DNA of 54,639 bases, taken from the IMG/VR virus record IMGVR_UViG_3300009034_000048, positions 1 to 54,639 of that record. One strand, given 5' to 3'. The notes below the pieces were generated by a model. The model was given only the letters and a program-made list of their open reading frames with translations. It was not told the DNA's origin and searched no databases. The DNA comes from a virus. Positions 3,745 through 46,823 of this stretch are shown one piece after another. Both the position numbers and the translations under genes were made by a program. The first letter of the stretch is position 1. Every line of letters begins with the position of its first letter.

Positions 3745-4126
3745 AAAATCAAGTAACAAGAATAATATATATTATTTAAAACAATATTTGAAGAAAAAAA
3801 AGAGAAGTTTAACTATAAAACAAAAAGAATATATCCAAAAATTAATCGGAAGAAAAGAAAAAGCTATCGAAAAAGAAGCGTTATTATATGAAAATTCCAG
3901 CTTATTGCATTTGGCAATAAAAGAATTAATAAGAGAAAAACAAATTACAAGAATAATGCAAAAAGAAAGAACCACAAAATTAATAGAAGAAAAAAGAACT
4001 ATAATAATAAAATATAAAAAAATCTCTTACAAAATAAAATCTGTTGCTGAATTAGTATTAAAAATGTTAGAAACGGTAAATTTAGCTCACGATAAAGGGT
4101 TTGGGGATACTCTTAATAGAATATAA
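3722..4126 (+). CDS. basic helical hypothetical protein
   Basis: A 134-residue, very Lys/Arg-rich, largely alpha-helical protein. AGGAGG lies at the right distance from the ATG inside the end of the HD-GYP gene. No recognised domain; the composition suggests nucleic-acid contact. Confidence 0.6.
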   Translation: MKNLHLPKKSSNKNNIYYLKQYLKKKKRSLTIKQKEYIQKLIGRKEKAIEKEALLYENSSLLHLAIKELIREKQITRIMQKERTTKLIEEKRTIIIKYKKISYKIKSVAELVLKMLETVNLAHDKGFGDTLNRI

Positions 4127-4139
4127 GGAGGAGAAAATT

Positions 4140-4367
4140 ATGAAAAAGATATTTGATTATTTAATTAAAATGTTTGTTATTACTATATTGTTTAGTTGTT
4201 ATATGGGATTTTTTACATTGACTTTGCTGGGTTTAAAGGAAGGGATTTTAGAGTATCTTTTATGCTCTTCTTGGGTTTCGTTATTATTGGGAATTGCCTT
4301 TTTTCCTGTTAGTGCTATGATTGTTTATGATATGGAATTAGAAAAGAAATCAAGGAGAAAAACCTAA
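4140..4367 (+). CDS. two-helix small membrane protein
   Basis: A 75-residue protein with two hydrophobic segments (about 8-30 and 40-62) and a basic C-terminal tail. I chose ATG 4140 because AAGGAGG precedes it. The stop overlaps the integrase start by one base. Function unknown; small holin-like proteins look like this, but no lysis genes adjoin it. Confidence 0.6.
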   Translation: MKKIFDYLIKMFVITILFSCYMGFFTLTLLGLKEGILEYLLCSSWVSLLLGIAFFPVSAMIVYDMELEKKSRRKT

Positions 4368-5164
4368 TGATAGAAAAATATAAAAATTGGTTGTTAGTTA
4401 ATGGAGCTTCGACTTTAACAGTAAAGAATTATATGGGAAAACTTAAAAAATTTCTAAAAGTTGTTAAGGTAAAAGAAATCAATGAAGAAAAAATTGCCAA
4501 ATTTCTTCTTGAATTGGGAGAAAATCAAAAAGCGTCTACTGTTAATATTTATAGAGCTATTATAAAATCTTTCTTAATATTTCTAAAAAAAGATATTTCT
4601 ATTCCTGACCAATTAAAATTAGAACAAAAATTACCTGATAGTATTACTGAAGAATTTTTTATAAAGGAAGTTATACCAGTTGTTGAGTGCATATTTACTA
4701 ATCCTTTAAAAATTAAAGCAATAATGTATTTTATATTTTATACTGGTGCAAGACGGGGAGAACTTAAACATTTAAAAAGAGAACATATTGACCTAACCTC
4801 AAGAACAGTAAAAATTTATGGAAAAGGGAAAAAAGAGAGGATAGTATTTTTCGATGAAAGAACTGCGGAAATATTACAATCTTATTTCACTACTGAACCA
4901 GAAATAATAAATGCTTTCAATATTAGAGATAAAGCATTAGAAAAAGTTTTTGAAAAGGTAAAACCTCATTTTAAAAATATAAATTTTAGACCTCATTTAC
5001 TTCGACATAGTTTTGCTACTATGTTTATAAATAATGGAGGAGATAGTGCTGTATTGAAAAGATTAATGGGACATTCTTCTATTACTACTACTGAAAGATA
5101 TATAGGAGTTGAAACGACTAAATTAAAGGAAATATACGACAAAACTATTGGAGGAAAGAAATGA
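4367..5164 (+). CDS. tyrosine recombinase (XerC/D-like integrase)
   Basis: A 265-residue site-specific recombinase that would cut and rejoin DNA through a phosphotyrosine link. The N-terminal SAM-like/core-binding domain spans ~1-85. The catalytic domain shows the full set: Arg in TGARRGE (~130), Lys in GKGKKER (~154), HLLR (210-213), the second His in GHSS (236) and nucleophile Y245 in ERYIG. Length and layout fit phage integrases or XerC/D-type dimer resolvases. It sits mid-operon, with no obvious attP core beside it, so dimer resolution is as plausible as lysogeny. Confidence 0.9.
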   Translation: MIEKYKNWLLVNGASTLTVKNYMGKLKKFLKVVKVKEINEEKIAKFLLELGENQKASTVNIYRAIIKSFLIFLKKDISIPDQLKLEQKLPDSITEEFFIKEVIPVVECIFTNPLKIKAIMYFIFYTGARRGELKHLKREHIDLTSRTVKIYGKGKKERIVFFDERTAEILQSYFTTEPEIINAFNIRDKALEKVFEKVKPHFKNINFRPHLLRHSFATMFINNGGDSAVLKRLMGHSSITTTERYIGVETTKLKEIYDKTIGGKK

Positions 5165-5870: not shown

Positions 5871-6077
5871 ATGAAACATATAACAGTTTGGGAAAGATAT
5901 AATTTAAAAAACCCTGAAAAGAAAATTTGGAAGTGGGAACATAACCATATTAGCGACGGTTGGGCTTTAAAAAGAAAACCAGAACCTATATGCGAATATC
6001 AACGAAGATGTTGGTTAGGGACGAAATGGAGAAGATTTTTGAGGCATTTAAATAAAAAGAATGAGGTAGTATTATGA
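5871..6077 (+). CDS. hypothetical protein, 68 aa
   Basis: A small, basic, Trp- and Arg-rich protein (seven Trp in 68 residues). It overlaps the following zinc-ribbon gene by four bases. No family recognised. Confidence 0.5.
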   Translation: MKHITVWERYNLKNPEKKIWKWEHNHISDGWALKRKPEPICEYQRRCWLGTKWRRFLRHLNKKNEVVL

Positions 6078-6346
6078 GATGTCCTTATTGTCATTCTGCT
6101 AATGTTTGGCTAATAGAAATTATCGGAATAATAGAACGCTGGTATTGTAAATATTGTCAAGAGGAATGGGAAATAAGACATACAGAAAAATGTGGAAAGA
6201 AAACTTTTCATTATGGAGATAATTTCCCTAACTTCAAACAAGAAAGAGAACAATATAAAGATATACCTCCAATAAGAAAAGAAGAATTTACTGATTTGAT
6301 TATTGATTTATGGGAATTAATTAATAGAAAGGAGAAAAGCAAATGA
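6074..6346 (+). CDS. zinc-ribbon protein
   Basis: A 90-residue protein with an N-terminal two-knuckle zinc ribbon, CPYC then CKYC separated by about 20 residues, as in transposase and TFIIS-type ribbons. The C-terminal half is helical. It overlaps both neighbours (ATGA-type junctions). Probably nucleic-acid binding; role unknown. Confidence 0.6.
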   Translation: MRCPYCHSANVWLIEIIGIIERWYCKYCQEEWEIRHTEKCGKKTFHYGDNFPNFKQEREQYKDIPPIRKEEFTDLIIDLWELINRKEKSK

Positions 6347-9747: not shown

Positions 9748-10008
9748 ATGAGTATATTTAACGAAATAACAACAAATTTATTGAATATAATTTATATTGT
9801 TGTCGATAGAACGATATGTATGGTTGACAAAATCGCATATGAAAAACGAGGAAATGTTTTGGTAAGAAAAGGGAATACTCAAATAGAAAGAACATTGCGA
9901 GGATTAATATTTATTCCAGCATATATAGCTATAATATCAATAATATTAATGTTCGTTGTGCCTATTTGCATATGCCAATTTTTAGATAGAATAATAGGAA
10001 ACAGATGA
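9748..10008 (+). CDS. small membrane protein, 86 aa
   Basis: An 86-residue protein with a hydrophobic N-terminal stretch and one strong transmembrane helix near residues 50-75. It overlaps the next gene by four bases. Part of a run of small membrane proteins (8780-10616). Function unknown. Confidence 0.55.
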   Translation: MSIFNEITTNLLNIIYIVVDRTICMVDKIAYEKRGNVLVRKGNTQIERTLRGLIFIPAYIAIISIILMFVVPICICQFLDRIIGNR

Positions 10009-10193
10009 TAAATAAAAAAGAACTTGAAAAATTATTACATGATTTAAATCGAGCTTCTAAAGCGATTAGATTGATACGAGATGAAGAAGATGAAGGTAAA
10101 CGTCATCTTCTCGCAGGGCTTATTTCTGACGAACTTGATAGACTACATGCAGATTTGGAAGAATTATATGAAAATGGAGAAGAAAATGAATAA
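10005..10193 (+). CDS. helical acidic protein, 62 aa
   Basis: A 62-residue, amphipathic, probably all-helical protein. It overlaps its neighbours on both sides by a few bases. No recognised motif. Confidence 0.5.
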   Translation: MINKKELEKLLHDLNRASKAIRLIRDEEDEGKRHLLAGLISDELDRLHADLEELYENGEENE

Positions 10194-10323
10194 AAATTTT
10201 TTAATAACATTGGTAGTTTTTTCTGTAATATTCGGATTTCTTTATAAATTTTTTGGATTTGAATTTGTCGTTTTAGTTGCGTTGGTATCTCTTTGTGCTA
10301 AATTATTAAGTTTAGAGATGTAA
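10186..10323 (+). CDS. 45-aa membrane protein
   Basis: Start chosen at ATG 10186, behind GGAGAAG and overlapping the previous stop. The 45 residues form one long or two short hydrophobic helices (FLITLVVFSVIFGFLY and VVLVALVSLCAKLL). Holin-sized, but with no lysis partner nearby. Confidence 0.5.
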   Translation: MNKNFLITLVVFSVIFGFLYKFFGFEFVVLVALVSLCAKLLSLEM

Positions 10324-15607: not shown

Positions 15608-16473
15608 TGTTTAAAAAAATTCTTAGAATAGTAACCTATTTTGTAGATATAATATGGTATCATTGGCACAAAATTGTGTTAATTCTTTGTGCTATGTTAT
15701 TATTTTTCAATATAAATTTACAATATGCTAATTTGAAAGCAAATTTTTTAAATAGTTTAGATGGAAGTTACTTAATAGAACTAGTAGAAAGAAATCATAC
15801 TATTCAAATGAGATTTATTCGTCAAATTATAAATGACGTTAATAAATTACAAGAAATTCAAAAATTGGACTCGATTCCGAAAGCAACTAGAAAACTTAAT
15901 ATAGATTATATTAAACAAGCAAATGTAATTTTTGATGGATATATTACTAAAGATAAAGGACATATCGGGTCTGCAACTCATATAAAAATAAACAATAAAA
16001 GTTATATTTTAACAACAGCCCATTTGCTTGAAAATATAATAAAAGCAATAATTATTACTGATAATTGGGAAAAATATGAATTGGAAATTTTAAAAATAGA
16101 TAACAAAATAGATTTGGCTTTATTAAAATTTAAATATCCTTTTATTGATTTTCCTTATTTAGAAATTTCGGAAGAACGACCTCAAGAAGGAGATGAAGTA
16201 TTGGTTATCGGCAATCCAGCAGATTATCGAGATATAATTACTGATGGCATTATAGCAAAATGTTTAAAAAAATCTTATTTTTTGACTAATCCAGTTTTTG
16301 ACGGAAGTAGTGGGGGAGCTATTCTATATAAAAGGAAAGTAGTAGGAGTAATTACTCAATTATATACCATTGGTCATAAAGAAGAACTCCGTTCTATTAG
16401 TTATGGTATAGGTATAAATTTTAAAACACTTAAAGAATTTTTGAAGGAATTCGAAAATGAAACTAAAGAATAA
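15607..16473 (+). CDS. membrane-anchored trypsin-like serine protease (S1C)
   Basis: A 288-residue protein with a transmembrane helix near residues 22-36, a helical stalk and a trypsin/DegP-type domain from about 105. The triad is visible: H139 in TTAHL, D169 in KIDLALLK and S235 in DGSSGGA. Topology suggests the protease faces the periplasm. It is the first of two related proteases in tandem and lacks a PDZ domain. Possible roles are superinfection exclusion or envelope remodelling; both are inference. Confidence 0.85.
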   Translation: MFKKILRIVTYFVDIIWYHWHKIVLILCAMLLFFNINLQYANLKANFLNSLDGSYLIELVERNHTIQMRFIRQIINDVNKLQEIQKLDSIPKATRKLNIDYIKQANVIFDGYITKDKGHIGSATHIKINNKSYILTTAHLLENIIKAIIITDNWEKYELEILKIDNKIDLALLKFKYPFIDFPYLEISEERPQEGDEVLVIGNPADYRDIITDGIIAKCLKKSYFLTNPVFDGSSGGAILYKRKVVGVITQLYTIGHKEELRSISYGIGINFKTLKEFLKEFENETKE

Positions 16474-16610: not shown

Positions 16611-17426
16611 TTGAAAAGAAAATTAACAACATTGGCAATATGGATTTTGGTAATTGTAATAGGATTTCAATTTTGTTACACGGAAGTAACGATTAGGAGA
16701 TTAAATAAAAATTTGAATACATTAAAACAAACAATAACAAATATATCTACAGCAACATTAGATGCGATAAAAAATTTAGACAAAAAGCCAGATTTTCACA
16801 AATTGAAATTAGCTACTGTGCAAATTAAATTAGGAAAATTTGATAAAAAACCAGCACCTGGTGGAGCAGGAGTATTAATAAAAGGAACAAAAAAACATTT
16901 ATATATTTTAACTGTTCAACATATAACTAAGAAAAAAAGCATATTATCAGTTAAAATTAGAAAAACAAATGACGAATATATAACATTAGAGAATATAAAT
17001 AAAAAACTTATTTATCAAGACGATAAAGTAGATTTAGCTTTAATTAAAATTCCAAAACCAAAAGGAGAATTTATTTATTTGGATTTGGCTGAAAACAATC
17101 CAAACATAGGCAATAAAGTTACTATAATAGGACATCCTTTTTGTTTCCCTTATACTTTAAATGAAGGTATAATTACTAATTATAGTAAAAGAATCTCTTG
17201 CACTAAAGAAAAAGCAGAATATTTTCAATTAAATGCTCCAGCCATTAATGGAAATTCTGGAGGAGCTGTAGTAAATAATAATACAGAATTAATAGGAATT
17301 ATGATGGGAATTATGTATATAGATAAAGGAACTTTTTTTAAAGATATTATGTTATTTCCTACTTATTCCTTTGCAGTAAAAACAGAAGATATTAAAAGAT
17401 TCTTACAAGAAGTCGAAAATAAATGA
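16611..17426 (+). CDS. second membrane-anchored trypsin-like serine protease (TTG start)
   Basis: A 271-residue paralogue of the upstream protease. The start is TTG 16611, supported by AAGGAGG eight bases before it; no ATG fits. An N-terminal signal anchor (residues ~7-24) and coiled stalk precede the protease domain. The triad is H104 in TVQHI, D141 in KVDLALIK and S216 in NGNSGGA. It overlaps the deformylase start by four bases. The two proteases may form a pair with different specificities. Confidence 0.85.
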   Translation: MKRKLTTLAIWILVIVIGFQFCYTEVTIRRLNKNLNTLKQTITNISTATLDAIKNLDKKPDFHKLKLATVQIKLGKFDKKPAPGGAGVLIKGTKKHLYILTVQHITKKKSILSVKIRKTNDEYITLENINKKLIYQDDKVDLALIKIPKPKGEFIYLDLAENNPNIGNKVTIIGHPFCFPYTLNEGIITNYSKRISCTKEKAEYFQLNAPAINGNSGGAVVNNNTELIGIMMGIMYIDKGTFFKDIMLFPTYSFAVKTEDIKRFLQEVENK

Positions 17427-20076: not shown

Positions 20077-20874
20077 ATGAAAAAGAAACTAATATTTATA
20101 TGTGGATTGTGTGTCATTGAGAACGAAGCCCAAACTTTAAAAGTTGCTAGATATTTAAAAAAGATAACTTCTAAATATCCTGAAGTAGACTTTTATTTTA
20201 AAGCCAGTTATGATAAAGCCAATCGCACTTCAATAGATTCATTTAGAGGAGTAGGATTTAGAAAAGGTAAAGAAATTTTAGGAAAAGTTAAAAATGATTT
20301 AAATATTAAAATTTTGACGGATGTCCATTCTATTCCTCAAGCTATCGCAATCAATAATAAATATAATTGGATAGATGTTCTTCAAATTCCAGCTTTCCTT
20401 TGTAGACAAACAGATTTAGTAAAAGCAATTGCAGATACAAACTCAATAGTTAATATTAAAAAAGGACAATTTATTGCACCAGAAGATGTAAAATATATAA
20501 TCGAAAAAATAGAATCAACAGGAAACAAAAATATAATGATAACAGAAAGAGGAACTTGTTTCGGATACAGAGATTTAATAGTCGATTATAGGTCTTTTAT
20601 TAAACTAAAAAAATATGGTTATCCTGTTATATTTGATGCTACCCATAGCCAACAAAAACCTTCTGCTGATAAAGGACAATCAGGAGGAACACCAGAATAT
20701 ACTCGTCAAATGATTTTGGGAGCAATTGCTACAGGAGTGGATGGCATATTTATGGAAGTTCATCCTAACCCTTCAAAAGCAAAATCAGATAGTGCTACTA
20801 GTCTATATTTAGAAGATGTAGATATTATATTGAAACAGGCGTTAGAAATAAAAAAGTTAGTTTCAAAGTATTGA
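20077..20874 (+). CDS. kdsA: 3-deoxy-D-manno-octulosonate 8-phosphate synthase
   Basis: KdsA condenses phosphoenolpyruvate with arabinose 5-phosphate to give Kdo 8-phosphate. The 265-residue protein shows FKASYDKANRTS, LTDVHS, QIPAFLCRQTDL, KKGQFIAPED, TERGTCFGY, IFDATHS, FMEVHPNP and SDSATS in the correct order. The N-terminal Cys in GLCVIE, with the His, Glu and Asp of the later motifs, fits the metal-dependent class. ATG 20077 is chosen; an upstream ATG lies in the previous gene. Promoter P2 overlaps the stop, so kdsA closes its operon. kdsB lies 20 kb downstream. Confidence 0.93.
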   Translation: MKKKLIFICGLCVIENEAQTLKVARYLKKITSKYPEVDFYFKASYDKANRTSIDSFRGVGFRKGKEILGKVKNDLNIKILTDVHSIPQAIAINNKYNWIDVLQIPAFLCRQTDLVKAIADTNSIVNIKKGQFIAPEDVKYIIEKIESTGNKNIMITERGTCFGYRDLIVDYRSFIKLKKYGYPVIFDATHSQQKPSADKGQSGGTPEYTRQMILGAIATGVDGIFMEVHPNPSKAKSDSATSLYLEDVDIILKQALEIKKLVSKY

Positions 20875-32212: not shown

Positions 32213-34558
32213 ATGAATCTAATTAATATATATAATAATCGTCGAGAAATATTTCTTTTCCTTCGTAATAAAGAAGGTTATCAAGAAATAAAAAAGATTA
32301 ATAACTTTTTTCCATACATGTATGAATATGACCCTAATGGAACTCAAAAAGGATTTGATGGAACTCCTTTAAGAAAAGTATTCGTATCCACCCCTGCTGA
32401 TGTTCGTAAACAAAGAACTAATAGAGCTTATGAGGCAGATATTATTTTTACTCGACGATATATGATTGATACTGTAAATAAGTTAGAAAAGTGTCCAATT
32501 AAATATGCTTTTATAGATATAGAAATATTATCAGATGATTTGCCTGATATTAAAAAAGCGAATAAGCCTGTTTCTTGCATAAGCATTTCTAATTCTTTTC
32601 AAGATGATTTATCTTGCGGTATTGTTACTTTTTATCTTGAGGATTATGAAACCGAATATAAAATGATAGAAGCTTTTATAGAATATCTTAAACAAGAAAA
32701 ATTCGATATTTTACTGGGTTGGAATTTTACGAAATTTGACTTTCCTTATTTATGCCAAAGATTTCCAGAATTTGCAGAAAAAATTAGTCCTATAGGACAG
32801 ACCAGATATGGAGATGGTGAGATTTATTACCCCGCTGGAATAAGTATTATAGATTATCTCTCATGGTTTAAGAAAACAACTTTAAATAGAGAACAAGAAT
32901 ATTCTCTCGATTATATTGCAAAAAAACATTTAGGATATGGTAAAAAATATATGAAATTAAATTTCGCTGAATTATCCCCTGCAATGAAAGAACGTAATAT
33001 AGATGATGTTAAGATATTAGTTGAGTTAGAAAAGAAGTATAAGATTATTCCTTACTTTGATGAAATAAGAAGACTATCTAAAATAGAATGGGAAGACCTT
33101 TTATGGAATTCCAGAGTTTTGGATATGCTTTTATTATCAGAAGCTAAAACTCAAAAAGTAGCTCTTCCTATGAAACCAGATGAAGAACGAGGAACATTGT
33201 CCGATAAAGAAGAATTCGCAGGAGCATTTAGAGAAGCCTTTAAAACTGGAAGATTTTTTAATGTAGGTAAATATGACCTTTCAAGTTGTTATCCATCAAT
33301 GATTATAGATTTTTGTTTAGACCCTGCTAATATTTGTCAAGTGCCCATAGGAACTCCAGTTAAAGAAGGAGATTTAAGAATAGAAGAGTCGGTATTTCGG
33401 CAAAATTCAAATGCTCTTCTTCCTACAGTTGCCAAGAAGTTGACCACTTTAAAAACTCAAATTAAACAAAAGTTGTCAACTCTTAAACTTAATACTCCAG
33501 AATATGAAGATATGAAAAAACGGTATGACGCAATAAAAACAGTAGTAAATTCTGCATATGGAGTCTTTGGTAATCGTTTCTTCCGTTTATATAATAAAAA
33601 TGTTGCTTCTACTACCACATTTCTTGTCAGAGATTTGCTTGATTATGTTATAACTGCTTTAAAATCAAAGGGTTACGACGTTATTTATGCTGACACGGAT
33701 GGACTTATGATAGACAAAAACGAAGAAGATTTATCTAGTCTTTTAAATGAATTAGTCAATCAATGGGCTAAAGAAAAATATGACAAAGAAAATATCACCA
33801 CAGAATTTGGATATGAAGGATATTATGAAAAAATATTGATACTTACAAAATGTAGATATTTGGGTTATGTTCGCACAGATAAAGGATTAGAAGAAGAAGT
33901 AAAAGGCATAGAAGCAAAAAGAAAAGATAGCACGATTTTTATGAAAAAGTTTCAAAGAGAATTAATAGATAAAATTCTTAATAAAGAAAAGAAAGAAGAT
34001 ATTTTTAGATGGATAAATAACCATATTGTTAATCTTAAATATTGTCCTTTACAAGAAATCGCTTTCCCATGTAAAATAGGAAAAGCTTTAGATGAATATA
34101 AGAATGTGCCTATATTCGTCAGAGCTTTAAAATATGCTCAAGAATTAGTTCCCTCTTTTAAGAAGAAAGTAGGACAATTATTTTATTATATCTATATAAA
34201 TTCGGATGAATATGAAGAAAATGAAAAAAACGCTTTTTGGTATAATGGAGCAAAATTAACTCCAGCAAAATTAAAGAAAGAATGGGAGCTTTATTTTGGG
34301 GAAAAAATTCTAGTAAAAAATATGGATAAAGATAGGCAAGAACAGTTAATTGAAAAATTAATGCAAGAAGGAAAGATAACAACTAACACAATAAAAACTA
34401 AAGGCAAATTAAAGAATATAATGGCATTTGATGAAGAAACTTATAAACATATCGATAAAAATAAAATAGATTGGGAAACTATGAAAAATAGGAATATTTA
34501 TATGAAATTATCTACAATTTTCGAAGCACTTAAATGGGATATTAAGGAGATTATATAA
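32213..34558 (+). CDS. family B DNA polymerase
   Basis: A 781-residue replicative polymerase with proofreading. Exo I is IDIEIL (D102/E104), Exo II GWNFTKFDFPY (N171-D176) and an Exo III-like NIDDVK near 262. Polymerase motif A is YDLSSCYPS (354-362), motif B K-x3-NSAYG (442-450) and motif C YADTDG (492-497), with Gly in place of the usual Ser. KCRYLGYV follows. Length is close to compact phage enzymes. It lies at the end of the replication block. Confidence 0.95.
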   Translation: MNLINIYNNRREIFLFLRNKEGYQEIKKINNFFPYMYEYDPNGTQKGFDGTPLRKVFVSTPADVRKQRTNRAYEADIIFTRRYMIDTVNKLEKCPIKYAFIDIEILSDDLPDIKKANKPVSCISISNSFQDDLSCGIVTFYLEDYETEYKMIEAFIEYLKQEKFDILLGWNFTKFDFPYLCQRFPEFAEKISPIGQTRYGDGEIYYPAGISIIDYLSWFKKTTLNREQEYSLDYIAKKHLGYGKKYMKLNFAELSPAMKERNIDDVKILVELEKKYKIIPYFDEIRRLSKIEWEDLLWNSRVLDMLLLSEAKTQKVALPMKPDEERGTLSDKEEFAGAFREAFKTGRFFNVGKYDLSSCYPSMIIDFCLDPANICQVPIGTPVKEGDLRIEESVFRQNSNALLPTVAKKLTTLKTQIKQKLSTLKLNTPEYEDMKKRYDAIKTVVNSAYGVFGNRFFRLYNKNVASTTTFLVRDLLDYVITALKSKGYDVIYADTDGLMIDKNEEDLSSLLNELVNQWAKEKYDKENITTEFGYEGYYEKILILTKCRYLGYVRTDKGLEEEVKGIEAKRKDSTIFMKKFQRELIDKILNKEKKEDIFRWINNHIVNLKYCPLQEIAFPCKIGKALDEYKNVPIFVRALKYAQELVPSFKKKVGQLFYYIYINSDEYEENEKNAFWYNGAKLTPAKLKKEWELYFGEKILVKNMDKDRQEQLIEKLMQEGKITTNTIKTKGKLKNIMAFDEETYKHIDKNKIDWETMKNRNIYMKLSTIFEALKWDIKEII

Positions 34559-36206: not shown

Positions 36207-36468
36207 AAATATCGGTAGAAAATTTGAAGAAAAAATTCAGAAATGTATTAATAGCGGTGCTCTCTTTTTCGATAAGGGAGACTTAAAAACAGATGATTAT
36301 CTTATTGAATGTAAATATACGGAGAAGAAAGGATTTAGAGTTACGAAGAAGATTCTCGAAAAAATTTGGTCAGAAGCATTTGAAACAAATAAACTTCCGA
36401 AGTTAATAGTAGGGATTAAAGATAATGGAAAAGATTGGATTTTAGATATAACTATAAACAGGAGGTAA
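36196..36468 (+). CDS. PD-(D/E)XK nuclease, Holliday-resolvase-like
   Basis: A 90-residue minimal nuclease: GRKFEEKIQ (Glu), KGDLKTDDYLIECKYTEKKGF (Asp and E-x-K) and a terminal helix-strand. The order matches archaeal Hjc/phage resolvase-like or RecB-type folds. It overlaps the HNH gene by eleven bases. Probably acts on branched or damaged DNA. Confidence 0.75.
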   Translation: MERKNIGRKFEEKIQKCINSGALFFDKGDLKTDDYLIECKYTEKKGFRVTKKILEKIWSEAFETNKLPKLIVGIKDNGKDWILDITINRR

Positions 36469-36473
36469 AGAAA

Positions 36474-37619
36474 ATGAGTAAAAAGCTGTGGACAAAGGAA
36501 AAGTTAGATGTTTTAAAGATGTATCTCGAAGCTGGAGCTAGTTATCGAGAAATAGCTCAAAAATTAAATCTAACTTATGGTCAAGTAGAACATGCTGTTC
36601 GTAGATATAATTTGCGAGCCGATGTGAATCCAGAGTTAGTTTTGCCCAAAGACAAATCTAAGTTAAAGAAAGCAGATATTACTAAATTGGCTCGGCTTAT
36701 AGGACAGAATATCTATGAAAATTACAGAACAATTAAACTTCGAGAACCTAAATCTTTAAAAAGCAAGGCTAAAAGAGAAGAAATATCTATTTTGGATATT
36801 TCAGATATTCATCTTGGGATGATTAATGAAGTGTTTGACAGCAAAACGGGTAAGAAAGAAATAACTTATAATTCAACTATTTTTGAACAAGAACTTGAAA
36901 ATCTTCAAGAATCGGTATTTCAAATTCACGAAATTCTGAGAAATGCTTATAAGTTAAAAGAATTGAATATTTTCTTACTTGGTGATATTGTAACAAATGA
37001 CCGTATATTCCCTGAGCAAACATTTGAAATTGAAAAAGTAGTTGGACTTCAAATATGGGATGCGGTAGGATATTTGAGTAAATTTATCAATAATTTGCTT
37101 AAAATCTATGAAAAAATTACAGTAGTAGGAGTAGTAGGTAATCATGGAAGGTCAAATCCTACTCATTATAACGAACCAGTAGAAAACAACTTTGAGTATT
37201 TCATCTACAAGACATTACAAAAACAATTTGAAAAAAGTAAACGAGTAACTATTATTGTTCCTGAAACACGAAGATATGTTCATACGGTTTACGGTTGGAG
37301 ACATCTTATTGAACATGGAGATAGTATGAGAGGGTCAAGTCGAAATTACATTGAAAAACAGATAAAAGATTTAAAACTTAATGTTGGCGGTTTTGATGTG
37401 TTGCATTTTGGACATTTCCATAAATTAGAAGAATTGGAAATTTCAGATAGTGTAATAGTTAAACAAAACGGTTGCTGGATTCCAAAGGATAATTATGGAT
37501 TTGTCAAATTTAAAAATTATAGTATCCCTAAACAGCATTTCTTTGGTTGCAACAAAACAAGACCAGAGACATGGAGCTATAAAATAGACCTTCGTAGTTT
37601 AAAAGGAGGAGAAAGATAA
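36474..37619 (+). CDS. HTH-fused calcineurin-like phosphoesterase
   Basis: A 381-residue protein. The N-terminal ~50 residues form a Myb/sigma-like helix-turn-helix (YREIAQKLNLTYGQVEHAVRRY). The catalytic part has ISDIHLG, LLGDIV, VVGNHGR, IEHGD and FGHFHK, all metallophosphoesterase motifs. ATG 36474 is chosen for AGGAGG six bases upstream. The DNA-binding module suggests a nuclease or DNA-end enzyme. Seen in various phages; exact substrate unknown. Confidence 0.85.
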   Translation: MSKKLWTKEKLDVLKMYLEAGASYREIAQKLNLTYGQVEHAVRRYNLRADVNPELVLPKDKSKLKKADITKLARLIGQNIYENYRTIKLREPKSLKSKAKREEISILDISDIHLGMINEVFDSKTGKKEITYNSTIFEQELENLQESVFQIHEILRNAYKLKELNIFLLGDIVTNDRIFPEQTFEIEKVVGLQIWDAVGYLSKFINNLLKIYEKITVVGVVGNHGRSNPTHYNEPVENNFEYFIYKTLQKQFEKSKRVTIIVPETRRYVHTVYGWRHLIEHGDSMRGSSRNYIEKQIKDLKLNVGGFDVLHFGHFHKLEELEISDSVIVKQNGCWIPKDNYGFVKFKNYSIPKQHFFGCNKTRPETWSYKIDLRSLKGGER

Positions 37620-37914: not shown

Positions 37915-38079
37915 ATGAAGTGGTTACAGAAATGTTTAGTATGTGAATATAAAGCTGAAATTGAAGGCAAATCCGAAGATGAAACTACTATTCGTGCTTG
38001 TTGTTTGCCTTGTGGACATCAAGGATTATTTATATTAGAGGAAATAAAGGAAACCAAAAATGACAGCAGAAATAATTAA
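37915..38079 (+). CDS. 54-aa zinc-binding protein
   Basis: ATG 37915 behind AAGGAGA; TAA at 38077-38079. CLVC and CCLPCGHQG, a RING/ribbon-like arrangement. It overlaps the next gene by 20 bases. Confidence 0.5.
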   Translation: MKWLQKCLVCEYKAEIEGKSEDETTIRACCLPCGHQGLFILEEIKETKNDSRNN

Positions 38080-38308
38080 AATACAAAAAAAGAAATCAAG
38101 ATATGGAGGATATTTTTATTATGTATTCTTCAAATCTTTAACAGGGAAATCTTACTATTCTTGTGTCTATGAGAGGATGCGTAATTATGCTCGTTGGAAA
38201 AAGATATTAGATGTGGGCGTTGTTTTATCAGGACTTAAATTAGCAAAAACAAAGCCTAATCTTATAGATGCAGATAGTAGATTTCAAGTTATTGGGAGGG
38301 ATAAATGA
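38060..38308 (+). CDS. hypothetical protein, 82 aa
   Basis: An 82-residue basic protein with several aromatic residues in a strand-rich region (YGGYFYYVFFKSL). It looks like a small beta-barrel nucleic-acid binder; weak. Four-base overlap with the next gene. Confidence 0.5.
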   Translation: MTAEIIKIQKKKSRYGGYFYYVFFKSLTGKSYYSCVYERMRNYARWKKILDVGVVLSGLKLAKTKPNLIDADSRFQVIGRDK

Positions 38309-38463
38309 AAAATAAACCAAGCAAAAAAGAGTCTTTATTTTTTCGACTATTTAACAGAATTTTGAAATTAAAACATCTTAGACTTTTTGAATTAGCGATT
38401 GGATTTGTGAAGGGTTTCTCTGTGAAAGTCGAATTTTTTAAAGAACATAATGGTCAGAAATAA
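38305..38463 (+). CDS. 52-aa basic protein
   Basis: ATG 38305 behind GGGAGG; TAA at 38461-38463. Amphipathic basic helices. Ends one base before the ATG of the next gene. Function unknown. Confidence 0.5.
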   Translation: MKNKPSKKESLFFRLFNRILKLKHLRLFELAIGFVKGFSVKVEFFKEHNGQK

Positions 38464-38464
38464 T

Positions 38465-38749
38465 ATGTCTACACATCCATCATTAAAACGCAACAAATGG
38501 AAAGAATTTAGAAGTGTGAGAACTCGTAGAGAACGCTTACAAAAATTACAACGCAATTTAAAATGGATGGAAAACAATAAATCAGTCTTTGGTTTACCAA
38601 AAGAAAAAATAGAACGTCTCAAATTTAAAATTAAGAAAGAAAAAGAAGAAGTCAAAAGTTTAGCTGACTATGCTACTTCTCTTCCTTCTAAAACAGAATC
38701 AACTAAGAAAAGGAAAACCAGTCGTGATGACAGAGAAACTCGCAAATAA
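38465..38749 (+). CDS. TIGR04137-like small basic protein
   Basis: A 94-residue protein from ATG 38465. Residues ~3-60 follow the family pattern: SLKR, SVRTRRERLQKL, W...NKSVFGLPKEKI, KFKIKKEK. I recall TIGR04137 as a short, strongly basic protein of Chlamydiae, Verrucomicrobia, Planctomycetes and Elusimicrobia, possibly ribosome-linked. Family members are ~60-70 residues; this one has a ~30-residue Lys/Ser/Thr-rich extension. ATG 38450 is an alternative start inside the previous gene. A phage copy points to the host lineage. Confidence 0.75.
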   Translation: MSTHPSLKRNKWKEFRSVRTRRERLQKLQRNLKWMENNKSVFGLPKEKIERLKFKIKKEKEEVKSLADYATSLPSKTESTKKRKTSRDDRETRK

Positions 38750-38847: not shown

Positions 38848-39272
38848 AATTTTTAGTATTAAGTAGACAAGAAATAGAACTATATAAACCTCCAAATAAA
38901 AAACATATTGTTATTTCTATAGCTGACCCCGAAGCGAAAACATATGCAAAAATTCCTAATTCTAATTTTAGATTAGGAGTATTGCAACTTCGTTTTCCAG
39001 ATTTTGATAGAGAATGGGAAGGATATAAATATAATTATTTGGTATTTAATCAGCAATTTGCTAAAGAGATTTTAGCTTTTGTTAATTACTGGAAATATAC
39101 AACCCAATTAATTATTTGTCAATGTGAAGCTGGGATTTCTCGTTCCGCAGGAGTAGCTGGAGCATTAGCGAAAATTTTGAATGGCGATGATAATTATTTC
39201 TTTAAACATTATCTTCCTAATAAATTAGTATATAATACAATACTCAAAGAGGCAAACAAATGCGAACCTTAA
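38844..39272 (+). CDS. dual-specificity/tyrosine phosphatase-like protein (TTG start)
   Basis: A 142-residue protein with the cysteine phosphatase loop ICQCEAGISRSAG (C-x5-R-S near residue 94). TTG 38844 is chosen for the AAAGGAA ribosome site and overlap with the preceding frame; no ATG fits. Substrates could be phosphoproteins, RNA 5' ends or signalling nucleotides. An Asp general-acid loop is not certain. Confidence 0.8.
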   Translation: MKFLVLSRQEIELYKPPNKKHIVISIADPEAKTYAKIPNSNFRLGVLQLRFPDFDREWEGYKYNYLVFNQQFAKEILAFVNYWKYTTQLIICQCEAGISRSAGVAGALAKILNGDDNYFFKHYLPNKLVYNTILKEANKCEP

Positions 39273-39898
39273 TCGTGGGCGATGTCCATATATCAGAAAA
39301 AACAATCCCTGAATTAACAGGGATTTTTAATGAAATAATAAAAATTGAAGCAGATAAAGTAATACAACTAGGAGACTTTTTTGAACACAATCGTCCTACT
39401 CCTCTCGAATTAAAATTTGCAACAAGAATAATCAAAGGTTTAAAAGATAAATATAAAGAAGTAACTATTCTTTCTGGAACAGGTGAACATGATTTATATC
39501 ACGATTATAGCGTGGTAGAATATTTGACAGAATTGGGAGTTAATATTGTTAGAGGAGAATATATAGATAACAATATTTTATATGGACATTTTATGCTTCA
39601 TGAATCACAATTACAATATGGAACTGGTAAATGTGGAATTAAAGATTTAGAGAAATATGACAAAGTTTTTCTTGGACATCAACATCTATTTCAAGAATTA
39701 AAACAGGATAAAATTTTTCATCCAGGTTCAATAAGATTTGTTAATTTTAATGAGGTTACAGACCCTTTTAAACGAGTTATTATTTTAAATAATGGAGAAG
39801 TGCAATTTAAGAAATTAGATTCTCCCTATCTTATGAAAGATTTTTATAATATTAAAGAAATAGAAACTTTTATTAATAGTTACCAAACAAAAAAATAA
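39260..39898 (+). CDS. SbcD/Mre11-like nuclease subunit
   Basis: A 212-residue metallophosphoesterase: VGDVHIS, LGDFFEHNRP, SGTGEHDLY, YGHFMLHES and GHQHLF. The order matches SbcD/T4 gp47, the nuclease that pairs with the SbcC/Rad50-like ATPase. The usual GNHD reads GEHD (Asn to Glu), which may alter activity. The presumed partner lies at 42199, separated by other genes. It overlaps the phosphatase gene by 13 bases. Confidence 0.8.
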   Translation: MRTLIVGDVHISEKTIPELTGIFNEIIKIEADKVIQLGDFFEHNRPTPLELKFATRIIKGLKDKYKEVTILSGTGEHDLYHDYSVVEYLTELGVNIVRGEYIDNNILYGHFMLHESQLQYGTGKCGIKDLEKYDKVFLGHQHLFQELKQDKIFHPGSIRFVNFNEVTDPFKRVIILNNGEVQFKKLDSPYLMKDFYNIKEIETFINSYQTKK

Positions 39899-41061: not shown

Positions 41062-41760
41062 ATGAAGGCAGTTGGAATTATCCCTGCACGCTATAATTCT
41101 ACAAGATTCCCAGGAAAATTGCTTGTAAAAGTTAAAGGGAAATCTATTCTTCAACATGTTTATGACCGAGCCAAACAAGCCAAAAGTTTGGATTCTATTA
41201 TTATAGCAACGGGGGATATGAAGATATTTAGAGATATTATGGAATTTACTGATAATATTTATCTTAATTTATCGAAACATGACTCAGGCACAAGTAGAGT
41301 AGCTGAAGTAGCCAAAACTTTAAAAGATGTAAATATTATTGTAAATATTCAAGGAGATGAACCATTAATTCATCCAACTATGATAGATGCTTTAGTAGAA
41401 ACAATGAAAAAAAATGAGCAACTTCAAGTAGCTACTATAGTTAAAAAGATAACAAATCCCGAAGATTTGCATTATGCAAATATAGTTAAAGTTGCAGTAG
41501 AGAAAGGATATGCTACTTGGTTTGGAAGACATCATCTAGCTTCTTACAAACATATAGGAATATATGCTTATAGAAAAGACTTTTTATTGAAGTTAATCAA
41601 TTTGCCAAAATCTAAAAAAGAAGAGCAAGAATCTTTAGAACAATATAGAATCTTAGATAATAATTATAAAATTAAAGCTATTGAGACTAGTTATGATACT
41701 GTTGCTATCGATAGACCTGATGACTTAAAGAAATTTAAACGTATATTATTAAGGAAATAA
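41062..41760 (+). CDS. kdsB: CMP-Kdo synthetase
   Basis: KdsB activates Kdo with CTP to CMP-Kdo. The 232 residues show IIPARYNSTRFPGKLL (nucleotide loop), HDSGTSRVAEV, NIQGDEPLI (metal Asp), HIGIYAYRKDFL, ESLEQYRIL and the VAIDRPDDL end. It is shorter than bacterial enzymes (~245-255). The usual SRSPIP segment before HIGIYAYR is replaced by FGRHHLASYK, a possible specificity change. A related CMP-sugar synthetase is the main alternative. GGGAAGG lies upstream. Confidence 0.9.
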   Translation: MKAVGIIPARYNSTRFPGKLLVKVKGKSILQHVYDRAKQAKSLDSIIIATGDMKIFRDIMEFTDNIYLNLSKHDSGTSRVAEVAKTLKDVNIIVNIQGDEPLIHPTMIDALVETMKKNEQLQVATIVKKITNPEDLHYANIVKVAVEKGYATWFGRHHLASYKHIGIYAYRKDFLLKLINLPKSKKEEQESLEQYRILDNNYKIKAIETSYDTVAIDRPDDLKKFKRILLRK

Positions 41761-44380: not shown

Positions 44381-44995
44381 ATGGAAATATTAGTAGTTTT
44401 AGTAGGAAATAGTCCCAAAAAATTAAAAAGACTTCAAAAGCTTTATGCTAATAATATACCCAAAGAAAAACATCGCACTATAGTAGTATATAATGGGTCA
44501 AAAAATTATAATAAAATAAATTTATATGTTCCTAATAATATACGAAGTAAAGATATAGGAATGTATTATGAAGCTGTCAAAAATTACAAAGCCGATTTTT
44601 ATTTTTTTCTTAATGACGATATAATATACATTAAAGATAATAATTGGTTATATACAGCTCTTAAATTGCAAAGAAATGCAGAAGTAATAGGAGTGCAAAC
44701 CAATCTTTCGTCTATTATTTCGATGAATACGATAAAAAAAATTGCGACCTATGTGCCAGCTAAATGGTCAGGTTGGGGAATCAATCCTAAATTTATACGA
44801 ACTTCTGCTTTTGGATGCACTAGAGAATATTTTTTGCGTGTTTGGAAAGCTTCTGATGGAAATGGGCAGAAATTTGAAAAAAATACTTTGAAATTAGCAA
44901 ATAGTTTTGGATTGTTTAATGACCCTTTTTATATTTTTGACGAAAACCTAAAACCTTACTTTAAATATTTGCAGGGAAATAATGAAAAATATTGA
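44381..44995 (+). CDS. GT-A-fold glycosyltransferase
   Basis: A 204-residue protein with a GT2-like start (EILVVLVGNSPKKLKRLQ), a helix rich in charge and FFLNDDIIY, where Asp-Asp sits at the DxD-like metal site. It has no membrane anchor. It opens a cluster of glycan genes after kdsB and overlaps the GT29-like gene by 14 bases. Sugar donor unknown. Confidence 0.7.
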   Translation: MEILVVLVGNSPKKLKRLQKLYANNIPKEKHRTIVVYNGSKNYNKINLYVPNNIRSKDIGMYYEAVKNYKADFYFFLNDDIIYIKDNNWLYTALKLQRNAEVIGVQTNLSSIISMNTIKKIATYVPAKWSGWGINPKFIRTSAFGCTREYFLRVWKASDGNGQKFEKNTLKLANSFGLFNDPFYIFDENLKPYFKYLQGNNEKY

Positions 44996-45521
44996 TAATT
45001 TTTTAGCAGGGAAAAAGATTGCACTTATCGGAAATGCAAAAAGCGTATTTAATAAAGAGAAATTTATAGACAATAAGTATGATATTGTTTGTCGTATAAA
45101 CGCTGGCTTTCCACAAGGGAAAGAAAAATATATAGGAAGTAGAACAGATATTTTATTTTTATCATCAGCTCTATCCGAAGGTGCTATAAAAAGATTTGGA
45201 ACAAAATATACTGTATGGTGCACTCCAAAAGTTCAATATATGACCAATTGGATAAGAAAAAATGCTTTACGTTATCCTATTGAAAATTGGAATGTGCTAT
45301 ATGCTGATTTGAGCCATCGACCTTCTACTGGAATAATGGCATTTGATTATCTTTTGTGTTTTGGTTTCAAAAGTTTAACATTGATTGGATTTGATTTTTG
45401 GAAAACTTCTACTTGGTATACTAATAATATACATTTGGCAAAACACAGTCCGAAAGATGAAGAAAGATATATTAAAGCCAAAATCAAAGAATATAAAGGC
45501 AAAATAATTTTGGAGGAATAA
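44982..45521 (+). CDS. GT29-like (sialyl/Kdo-transferase-type) glycosyltransferase
   Basis: A 179-residue protein resembling bacterial GT29: KIALIGNAKSVF, then DIVCRINAGFPQG and a GSRTD segment (like sialyl motif L), and PSTGIMAFDYLLCFGFKSLTLIGFDFW with a later His/Glu (like motif S). GT29 enzymes take CMP-linked acidic sugars. A plant member transfers Kdo. With kdsA and kdsB nearby, CMP-Kdo is the likely donor. The specificity is inference. Confidence 0.75.
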   Translation: MKNIDNFLAGKKIALIGNAKSVFNKEKFIDNKYDIVCRINAGFPQGKEKYIGSRTDILFLSSALSEGAIKRFGTKYTVWCTPKVQYMTNWIRKNALRYPIENWNVLYADLSHRPSTGIMAFDYLLCFGFKSLTLIGFDFWKTSTWYTNNIHLAKHSPKDEERYIKAKIKEYKGKIILEE

Positions 45522-45935: not shown

Positions 45936-46823
45936 ATGAAGTATAAAAAAGCTATATTAATAAACGACACGTCCAATGAAAGCCATCTTGGTTGCGATAG
46001 CGTTATTAGAAATATCAAACTTCTATGCAAAAAAAATGACATGGAAGTTATTAGGACATTTACACGCCAAGATATTAATAATCGTCGTAATCTTGAACAT
46101 ATTAAAGATGGTGACATTATAATTGTAAATGGAGAAGGAACTCTTCATGATGGATGGGGAAAACAATGGCTTACTAAATTTCTTAAACTCATACCTAAAG
46201 GAACAAAAGCAGTGTTGATTAATAGTGTATGGCATAATATGGGGAAGATTGAGAGAATGGCGAAATTCTCTTTAATTTCTGTAAGAGAGTTGAATTCTTT
46301 TGAGTCTATAGTAAAAGATTATCCATATCCAGAAAAAATATGGGTAGTGCCTGATGTTATTTTTTATACTGAACTCCCGAAAGAATTAAATATAGGATAT
46401 GGAGATAGTAATAATGGTTCGATTACAGCCATATTGAATAAAAATGGAAATTATTTTCCATTGCATTATAAACGTCCAGGAACGTATCAACACCCTGCCG
46501 AATTAAAATCTCAAAATTTAAAGTCTTATCGTAAGTGGTTAAAATCATTGGACTTATATATTACAGGTAGGTTTCATGGAGTTTGTTTATCTGCTATGAC
46601 AGCTACTCCTTTTTTAGCTTTTGCTTCTAATGCAACAAAAATCGAAGGTATTTTAAGAGATATGAATTGTTCTGATTTATTAATTAAAAATTTAGATGAA
46701 GTCGAAAAGAAGAAAGAATTGGCTATTGAATTGATTCCAAGAGCTTATTTATATGCTACACAAGCGAAAGAAGCGATTGAGAGTTTGTTTAAAAAGATAA
46801 GAAGGATAGCTTATGAAGAATAA
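45936..46823 (+). CDS. polysaccharide pyruvyltransferase-family protein
   Basis: A 295-residue CsaB/WcaK-type enzyme that adds pyruvate ketals to sugars from phosphoenolpyruvate. SHLGCDSVIRNIKLL at the N-terminus, VNGEGTLHDGWG, and TGRFHGVCLSAMTATPFLAFASNATKIEG in the second half are family hallmarks. Pyruvylation creates acidic surface glycans. Fits the cluster with GT29-like and Kdo genes. Some members act as glycosyltransferases instead. Confidence 0.88.
   Translation: MKYKKAILINDTSNESHLGCDSVIRNIKLLCKKNDMEVIRTFTRQDINNRRNLEHIKDGDIIIVNGEGTLHDGWGKQWLTKFLKLIPKGTKAVLINSVWHNMGKIERMAKFSLISVRELNSFESIVKDYPYPEKIWVVPDVIFYTELPKELNIGYGDSNNGSITAILNKNGNYFPLHYKRPGTYQHPAELKSQNLKSYRKWLKSLDLYITGRFHGVCLSAMTATPFLAFASNATKIEGILRDMNCSDLLIKNLDEVEKKKELAIELIPRAYLYATQAKEAIESLFKKIRRIAYEE

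Follow-up and report, generated by a model that had tools for sequence, protein, structure and literature searches.

A phage-encoded homologue of the PVC signature protein TIGR04137 in tailed phages with probable Omnitrophota hosts

A homologue of the small basic signature protein of PVC bacteria (family TIGR04137) is encoded by a virus whose 54,639-nucleotide IMG/VR record, IMGVR_UViG_3300009034_000048, was analyzed over its whole length (hereafter the window), and the same gene occupies the same position in four other phage contigs. The interpretation preferred here, to which we assign a probability of about 0.55, is that the phages carry their own form of the PVC signature protein, a captured host RNA- or ribosome-associated protein that would be supplied during infection in the manner of phage bS21. 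Sequence comparisons favor Omnitrophota as the hosts of these phages.

The signature protein of the window

The protein of 94 aa begins MSTHPSLKRNKWKEFRSVRTRRERLQKLQRNLKWMENNKSVFGLPKEKIERLKFKIKKEK. The longest possible start of the open reading frame is the in-frame ATG at 38450, which would add five residues relative to the ATG at 38465; since all relatives begin with MSxHPSL or MSxHxSL, 38465 is the likely start codon, and the stop codon ends at 38749. In an NCBIfam hmmscan, residues 1-50 matched the complete TIGR04137.1 profile (positions 1-50 of 50) with an E value of 2.6e-10 and 40 bits, and a six-frame search of the whole record with TIGR04137 gave 9.4e-12 and 41.1 bits, whereas none of 14 control genomes had a match in the six-frame search. 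The curated cut-off of this NCBIfam model (Chlam_Ver_rRNA, 'small basic protein') is 50 bits, and host copies from the 12 genomes checked scored 64-90 bits against it; the window copy, at 40 bits, is therefore termed a divergent homologue and not a curated member. Among the phage orthologues, those of L169 (53.2 bits) and L171 (52.2 bits) exceeded the cut-off, and those of L104 and L107 scored 42.1 and 41.7 bits, respectively. The earlier note on this DNA, made from the letters alone, had assigned the protein to TIGR04137 and proposed a profile search as the check; the full-length match bears out the assignment, though under the curated cut-off. No significant match for the protein was found in Pfam or PHROGs. 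The AlphaFold2 model (pLDDT 73, pTM 0.43) showed a confident helix at residues 21-31, a less confident helix at 56-71 and otherwise extended segments, with a low-confidence tail, and had no structural match in PDB or BFVD (Foldseek).

The charged C-terminal extension had been regarded as an addition made by the phage, a view that had to be abandoned. Host copies range from about 48 to 135 aa, most of them with tails, and those of Omnitrophota continue with the same RFKIKKEK stretch, followed by a long Ala/Pro/Lys-rich tail, implying that the extension was inherited and is not a phage invention. Phage copies have kept this stretch as LKFKIKKEK with a two-residue insert, and a shorter, variable tail replaces the Ala-rich one. 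Coordinates of the gene, its orthologues and its neighbors are given in Table 1.

Table 1. Features of the window and orthologues of the signature-protein gene in related phage contigs
Feature	Location	Position	Strand	Basis or remarks
KdsA (KDO-8-phosphate synthase), second independent Omnitrophota marker	window	20077..20874	+	TIGR01362, 337 bits
Family B DNA polymerase (PolB), used to find related phages	window	32213..34558	+	781 aa
HTH and metallophosphoesterase protein, part of the conserved block	window	36435..37619	+	
82-aa conserved phage gene, upstream	window	38060..38308	+	also L104:15520-15771, L169:5267-5512, L171:2882-3124
52-aa ORF	window	38305..38463	+	stop 1 base before the start codon of the signature-protein gene
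Phage-borne TIGR04137 / PVC signature protein homologue, 94 aa, pI 10.7	window	38465..38749	+	NCBIfam hmmscan, six-frame search, orthologues
TIGR04137 domain (MSTHPSLK...RSVRTRRERLQKL...W...NKSVFGLPKEKIER)	window	38465..38614	+	profile 1-50 of 50
C-terminal extension; FKIKKEK common to Omnitrophota copies, remainder phage-variable	window	38615..38749	+	alignment; low confidence in AlphaFold2
SbcD-like phosphoesterase, downstream	window	39260..39898	+	order same in L104 and L171
Orthologue in L104	contig 3300033148_004210, 101.6 kb	15775-16011		PolB 78% identical to window
Orthologue in L107	contig 3300002052_000634, 100.6 kb	10001-10276		PolB 58% identical to window
Orthologue in L169	contig 3300017991_000442, 20.6 kb	6001-6243		
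Orthologue in L171	contig 3300033148_005240, 54.5 kb	3803-4069		

Related phages and gene neighborhood

Scans of IMG/VR with the plain protein and with a family consensus returned no matches, and the relatives were found via PolB and via alignments containing true relatives. PolB alone led to L104, whereas the signature-protein gene itself was what brought up L107, L169 and L171, so that its presence in all five contigs (the window, L104, L107, L169 and L171) provides no estimate of its frequency in this phage group. At the sensitivity used, no copy was detected with either phage or host queries in 50,697 GenBank phage records (INPHARED). The L107 contig carries a tape-measure protein and baseplate-type genes, which identifies the carriers as tailed phages as opposed to host contamination.

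All five contigs have the gene in the same place within a block that runs PolB, HTH-metallophosphoesterase protein, a small coiled gene, an 80-83-aa gene (in four of the five), the signature protein and SbcD/SbcC-type genes, except that the L171 stretch does not reach PolB and L169 ends soon after the signature-protein gene; HNH-type genes are inserted near the latter in both L169 and L171. The neighbors of the phage copy are SbcC/SbcD, nuclease and polymerase genes, with no translation genes among them, which weighs against a role in translation, and translational coupling of the 52-aa ORF with the signature-protein gene is possible. For pairs with unsaturated dS, dN/dS was 0.37-0.49 (over the first 60 aligned codons, 0.37 for both window-L104 and L104-L107, dS being saturated for window-L107). 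The phage gene is thus under purifying selection, with dN/dS of about 0.4, and these values together with the position kept in five contigs show that the gene in the window is real and not a chance reading frame.

In L104 (10001-13201) the PolB frame is fused C-terminally to a domain of the Mom family (PF25680, E 8.6e-45), to which the DNA-modification protein of phage Mu belongs; the window PolB has no such domain. The PolB of L169 (31-2154) is split by a LAGLIDADG-containing, intein-like insertion. A leucyl aminopeptidase (Peptidase_M17) is encoded near the SbcC/SbcD block in L171 (5391-6302) and, by resemblance only, in L104 (17181-18089).

Distribution of the family in bacteria

The family presumably corresponds to CT421.2 of Chlamydia trachomatis, with which it agrees in distribution, size and description. 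Gupta and co-workers reported CT421.2 as the sole protein limited to Planctomycetes, Verrucomicrobia, Chlamydiae and Lentisphaerae (PMC3444138), and the PVC signature protein has also been treated in PMC2474590. When 84,980 bacterial and archaeal genomes were searched for the conserved stretches, with a hand-written consensus as the confirming query, 72 loci were returned, all real genome sequence with the family motif. The named phyla among them were Planctomycetota, Omnitrophota, Lentisphaerota, Chlamydiota and Auribacterota, a few loci being titled only 'bacterium'. When the window protein was used as query, matches were found in 335 of 384 Omnitrophota genomes, nearly always as a single copy (best 50.7 bits, 56% identity), compared with 94 of 149 in Planctomycetota (best 38.3 bits), 20 of 145 in Verrucomicrobiota/Lentisphaerota (best 34.2 bits) and 20 of 44 in Chlamydiota (best 30.3 bits); more than 100 Omnitrophota genomes outscored the best of Verrucomicrobiota, with sample sizes that differ between phyla. 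In every search run the family was confined to PVC bacteria, and the phages were the only non-cellular carriers found.

Next to the host gene, Omnitrophota encode a SPOR protein together with 3-dehydroquinate synthase or else an SH3 protein (in L054:2355-4470, for example, the gene has a SPOR-domain gene on one side and 3-dehydroquinate synthase on the other). Scalindua has an aminotransferase there, and in Chlamydiota and Auribacterota the gene that follows encodes an RsuA-type pseudouridine synthase. Membership of the host gene in a ribosomal operon was rejected, as these neighbors vary and offer no steady ribosomal context.

Origin of the phage copies and probable hosts

Because the family is limited to PVC bacteria, a PVC host can be assigned to the phages. 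In a tree of 108 copies, the five phage copies formed one clade (100/98) that joined Omnitrophota (95/76), the nearest copies being L076 and L077, with which they have the unusual LPKEK/LPKDK motif in common. Given only 64 alignment columns, this placement is not decisive, and the AU test rejected no PVC phylum as the source (p 0.29 for Planctomycetota, 0.33 for Chlamydiota/Verrucomicrobiota and 0.44 for a position just outside Omnitrophota). KdsA serves as a second, independent marker: its best match was 57% identical in Omnitrophota vs 50% in Verrucomicrobiota (protein search), and the phage protein nested in an Omnitrophota subclade (97/95) in a tree with few reference sequences from outside Omnitrophota. 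One 20-kb part of the window, compared with 384 Omnitrophota genomes, yielded no CRISPR spacer match, the two short spacer-candidate matches examined both lying outside repeat arrays, and a literature search surfaced no dedicated phage study for Omnitrophota.

It might be argued that the phages infect another PVC phylum, such as Planctomycetota, and that their likeness to Omnitrophota reflects divergent-sequence attraction or an older transfer; a grouping with Planctomycetota or with Chlamydiota/Verrucomicrobiota is compatible with the AU test. We regard this as improbable, since the best Omnitrophota score exceeds that of any other phylum by at least 12 bits and KdsA provides an independent placement within Omnitrophota. 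Omnitrophota are accordingly the favored hosts on sequence evidence, and the earlier suggestion that the protein hints at the host lineage stands at the level of PVC bacteria, whereas the Chlamydiae, Verrucomicrobia and Planctomycetes that it had named gave way to Omnitrophota as the nearest relatives.

Other genes of the window

In addition to KdsA, the window encodes KdsB (CMP-KDO synthetase, 41062-41760), both above NCBIfam cut-offs, a polysaccharide pyruvyl transferase (45936-46823) and a weak sialyltransferase-like match (44982-45521), which together represent a KDO or surface-sugar pathway on the phage; Synechococcus phage S-SCSM2R is also annotated with a KdsA/KdsB pair. A tyrosine recombinase of the phage integrase family (4367-5164, E 5e-24), 67% identical to a copy in the related phage contig L163, possibly has a temperate or resolution function. 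A trypsin-like protease domain was detected at 16611-17426 (PF13365, E 3.6e-17), and there are no tRNA genes in the window.

Relation to the ribosome and uL30

We know of no experiment that puts the host signature protein in the ribosome. Cavalier-Smith and Chao, citing Lagkouvardos 2014, regarded the protein as small and RNA-binding and as a possible replacement for ribosomal protein L30, which according to them is missing from the PVC group (PMC7203096). In Omnitrophota, uL30 (PF00327) was detected in one of 193 genomes, and this match was partial (22 positions within a 435-aa frame), compared with 13 of 14 controls; the pattern is complementary, with uL30 absent and the signature protein present in the genomes counted above (335/384). 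That the phage protein targets the ribosome, as the earlier note had suggested, is plausible only indirectly, through the absence of uL30 from Omnitrophota combined with the published proposal of a substitute.

The idea that the signature protein is itself a diverged uL30 was rejected: profile comparison gave a probability of 0.2%, using a uL30 profile of four sequences, three entered by hand (of which the E. coli one was an exact PDB match) and one taken from a PDB alignment. No uL30-like fold was seen in the AlphaFold2 model, and a search of PDB sequences yielded no related or ribosomal chain save a low-complexity match with an E value of 1.2. Any replacement of uL30 would thus be by an unrelated protein.

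Proposed role and alternatives

Under the interpretation preferred here, a single capture by the ancestor of this tailed-phage group, most probably from an Omnitrophota host, would have introduced the gene, which has been kept under selection since then. The phage copy would be expressed during infection and would bind RNA, probably in association with the ribosome and possibly as the PVC stand-in for the missing uL30; by joining or replacing the host copy, it may maintain or tune translation for the phage. The analogy is with phage-encoded bS21, which is thought to act likewise. A more far-reaching version, in which tailed Omnitrophota phages encode a PVC-specific ribosomal protein that replaces uL30 and remodels the host ribosome with a part absent from other bacteria, is tentative, and we would sooner bet against it.

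Two other roles have to be weighed. The fixed position of the gene among DNA-metabolism genes in related phages would suit a nucleic-acid-binding accessory of phage DNA replication or recombination that works with its SbcCD-like, polymerase and nuclease neighbors and has retained the basic RNA/DNA-binding surface of the host protein; the high pI of the phage proteins (10.3-10.7) and their divergence from host copies, seen in the phage-specific LPKEK and two-residue insert before FKIKKEK, are in line with such a role. However, gene order in phages often mirrors timing and not function, and the pan-PVC residues (MSxHxSL, RSV..R.ER, FGLPK) are largely kept, suggesting that the binding partner of the host protein is kept too, so that we consider this role unlikely. 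A competitive inhibitor, which would oust the host signature protein from a ribosomal or RNA site and thereby stop or reprogram host translation, could explain a conserved core with an altered tail and the changes from LPK(V/T)-(K/R) to LPKEK and, in L104, from FGLPK to FRLPK. In vitro, ribosomes with pelagiphage bS21 had almost no activity (about 5% of wild type), which, as the authors pointed out, may reflect incompatibility with E. coli (PMC6375957). CFRLPKEK also stands in L076, the Omnitrophota copy closest to those of the phages, so the phage changes fall within natural variation among host copies and do not mark inactivation, which makes an inhibitor quite improbable. By analogy with phage bS21, an RNA- or ribosome-associated role would be favored over both, at about even odds.

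Recognition of the PVC signature protein dates back more than 10 years. Retention of a copy by a group of phages suggests that the protein acts where phages gain from control, as the ribosome hypothesis predicts. The gene can also serve as a host marker for phage contigs that otherwise have no host, tying them to PVC bacteria and, in combination with KdsA, to Omnitrophota.

Comparison with known systems

The comparison with uL30 is one of distribution: the two are complementary in Omnitrophota and a replacement has been suggested (PMC7203096), whereas they have no profile similarity and no fold in common in the model. Virus-encoded bS21 and bL12 are able to enter ribosomes, bS21 into those of E. 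coli (PMC6375957). Like the virus-encoded ribosomal proteins bS21, bL12 and bL9 (PMC6375957, PMC9723584), the phage signature protein is a small captured host protein under purifying selection; in contrast to them, the ribosomal membership of its family is a proposal, and the searches detected no similarity in sequence to a ribosomal protein. From the TIGR04137 copies of hosts it differs in being phage-encoded, in forming its own clade (100/98), in the LPKEK motif with the two-residue insert, in a shorter tail without the Ala-rich part and, for the window copy, in a score of 40 bits, whereas the full-length domain, the size, the basic character and the invariant residues are those of TIGR04137/CT421.2.
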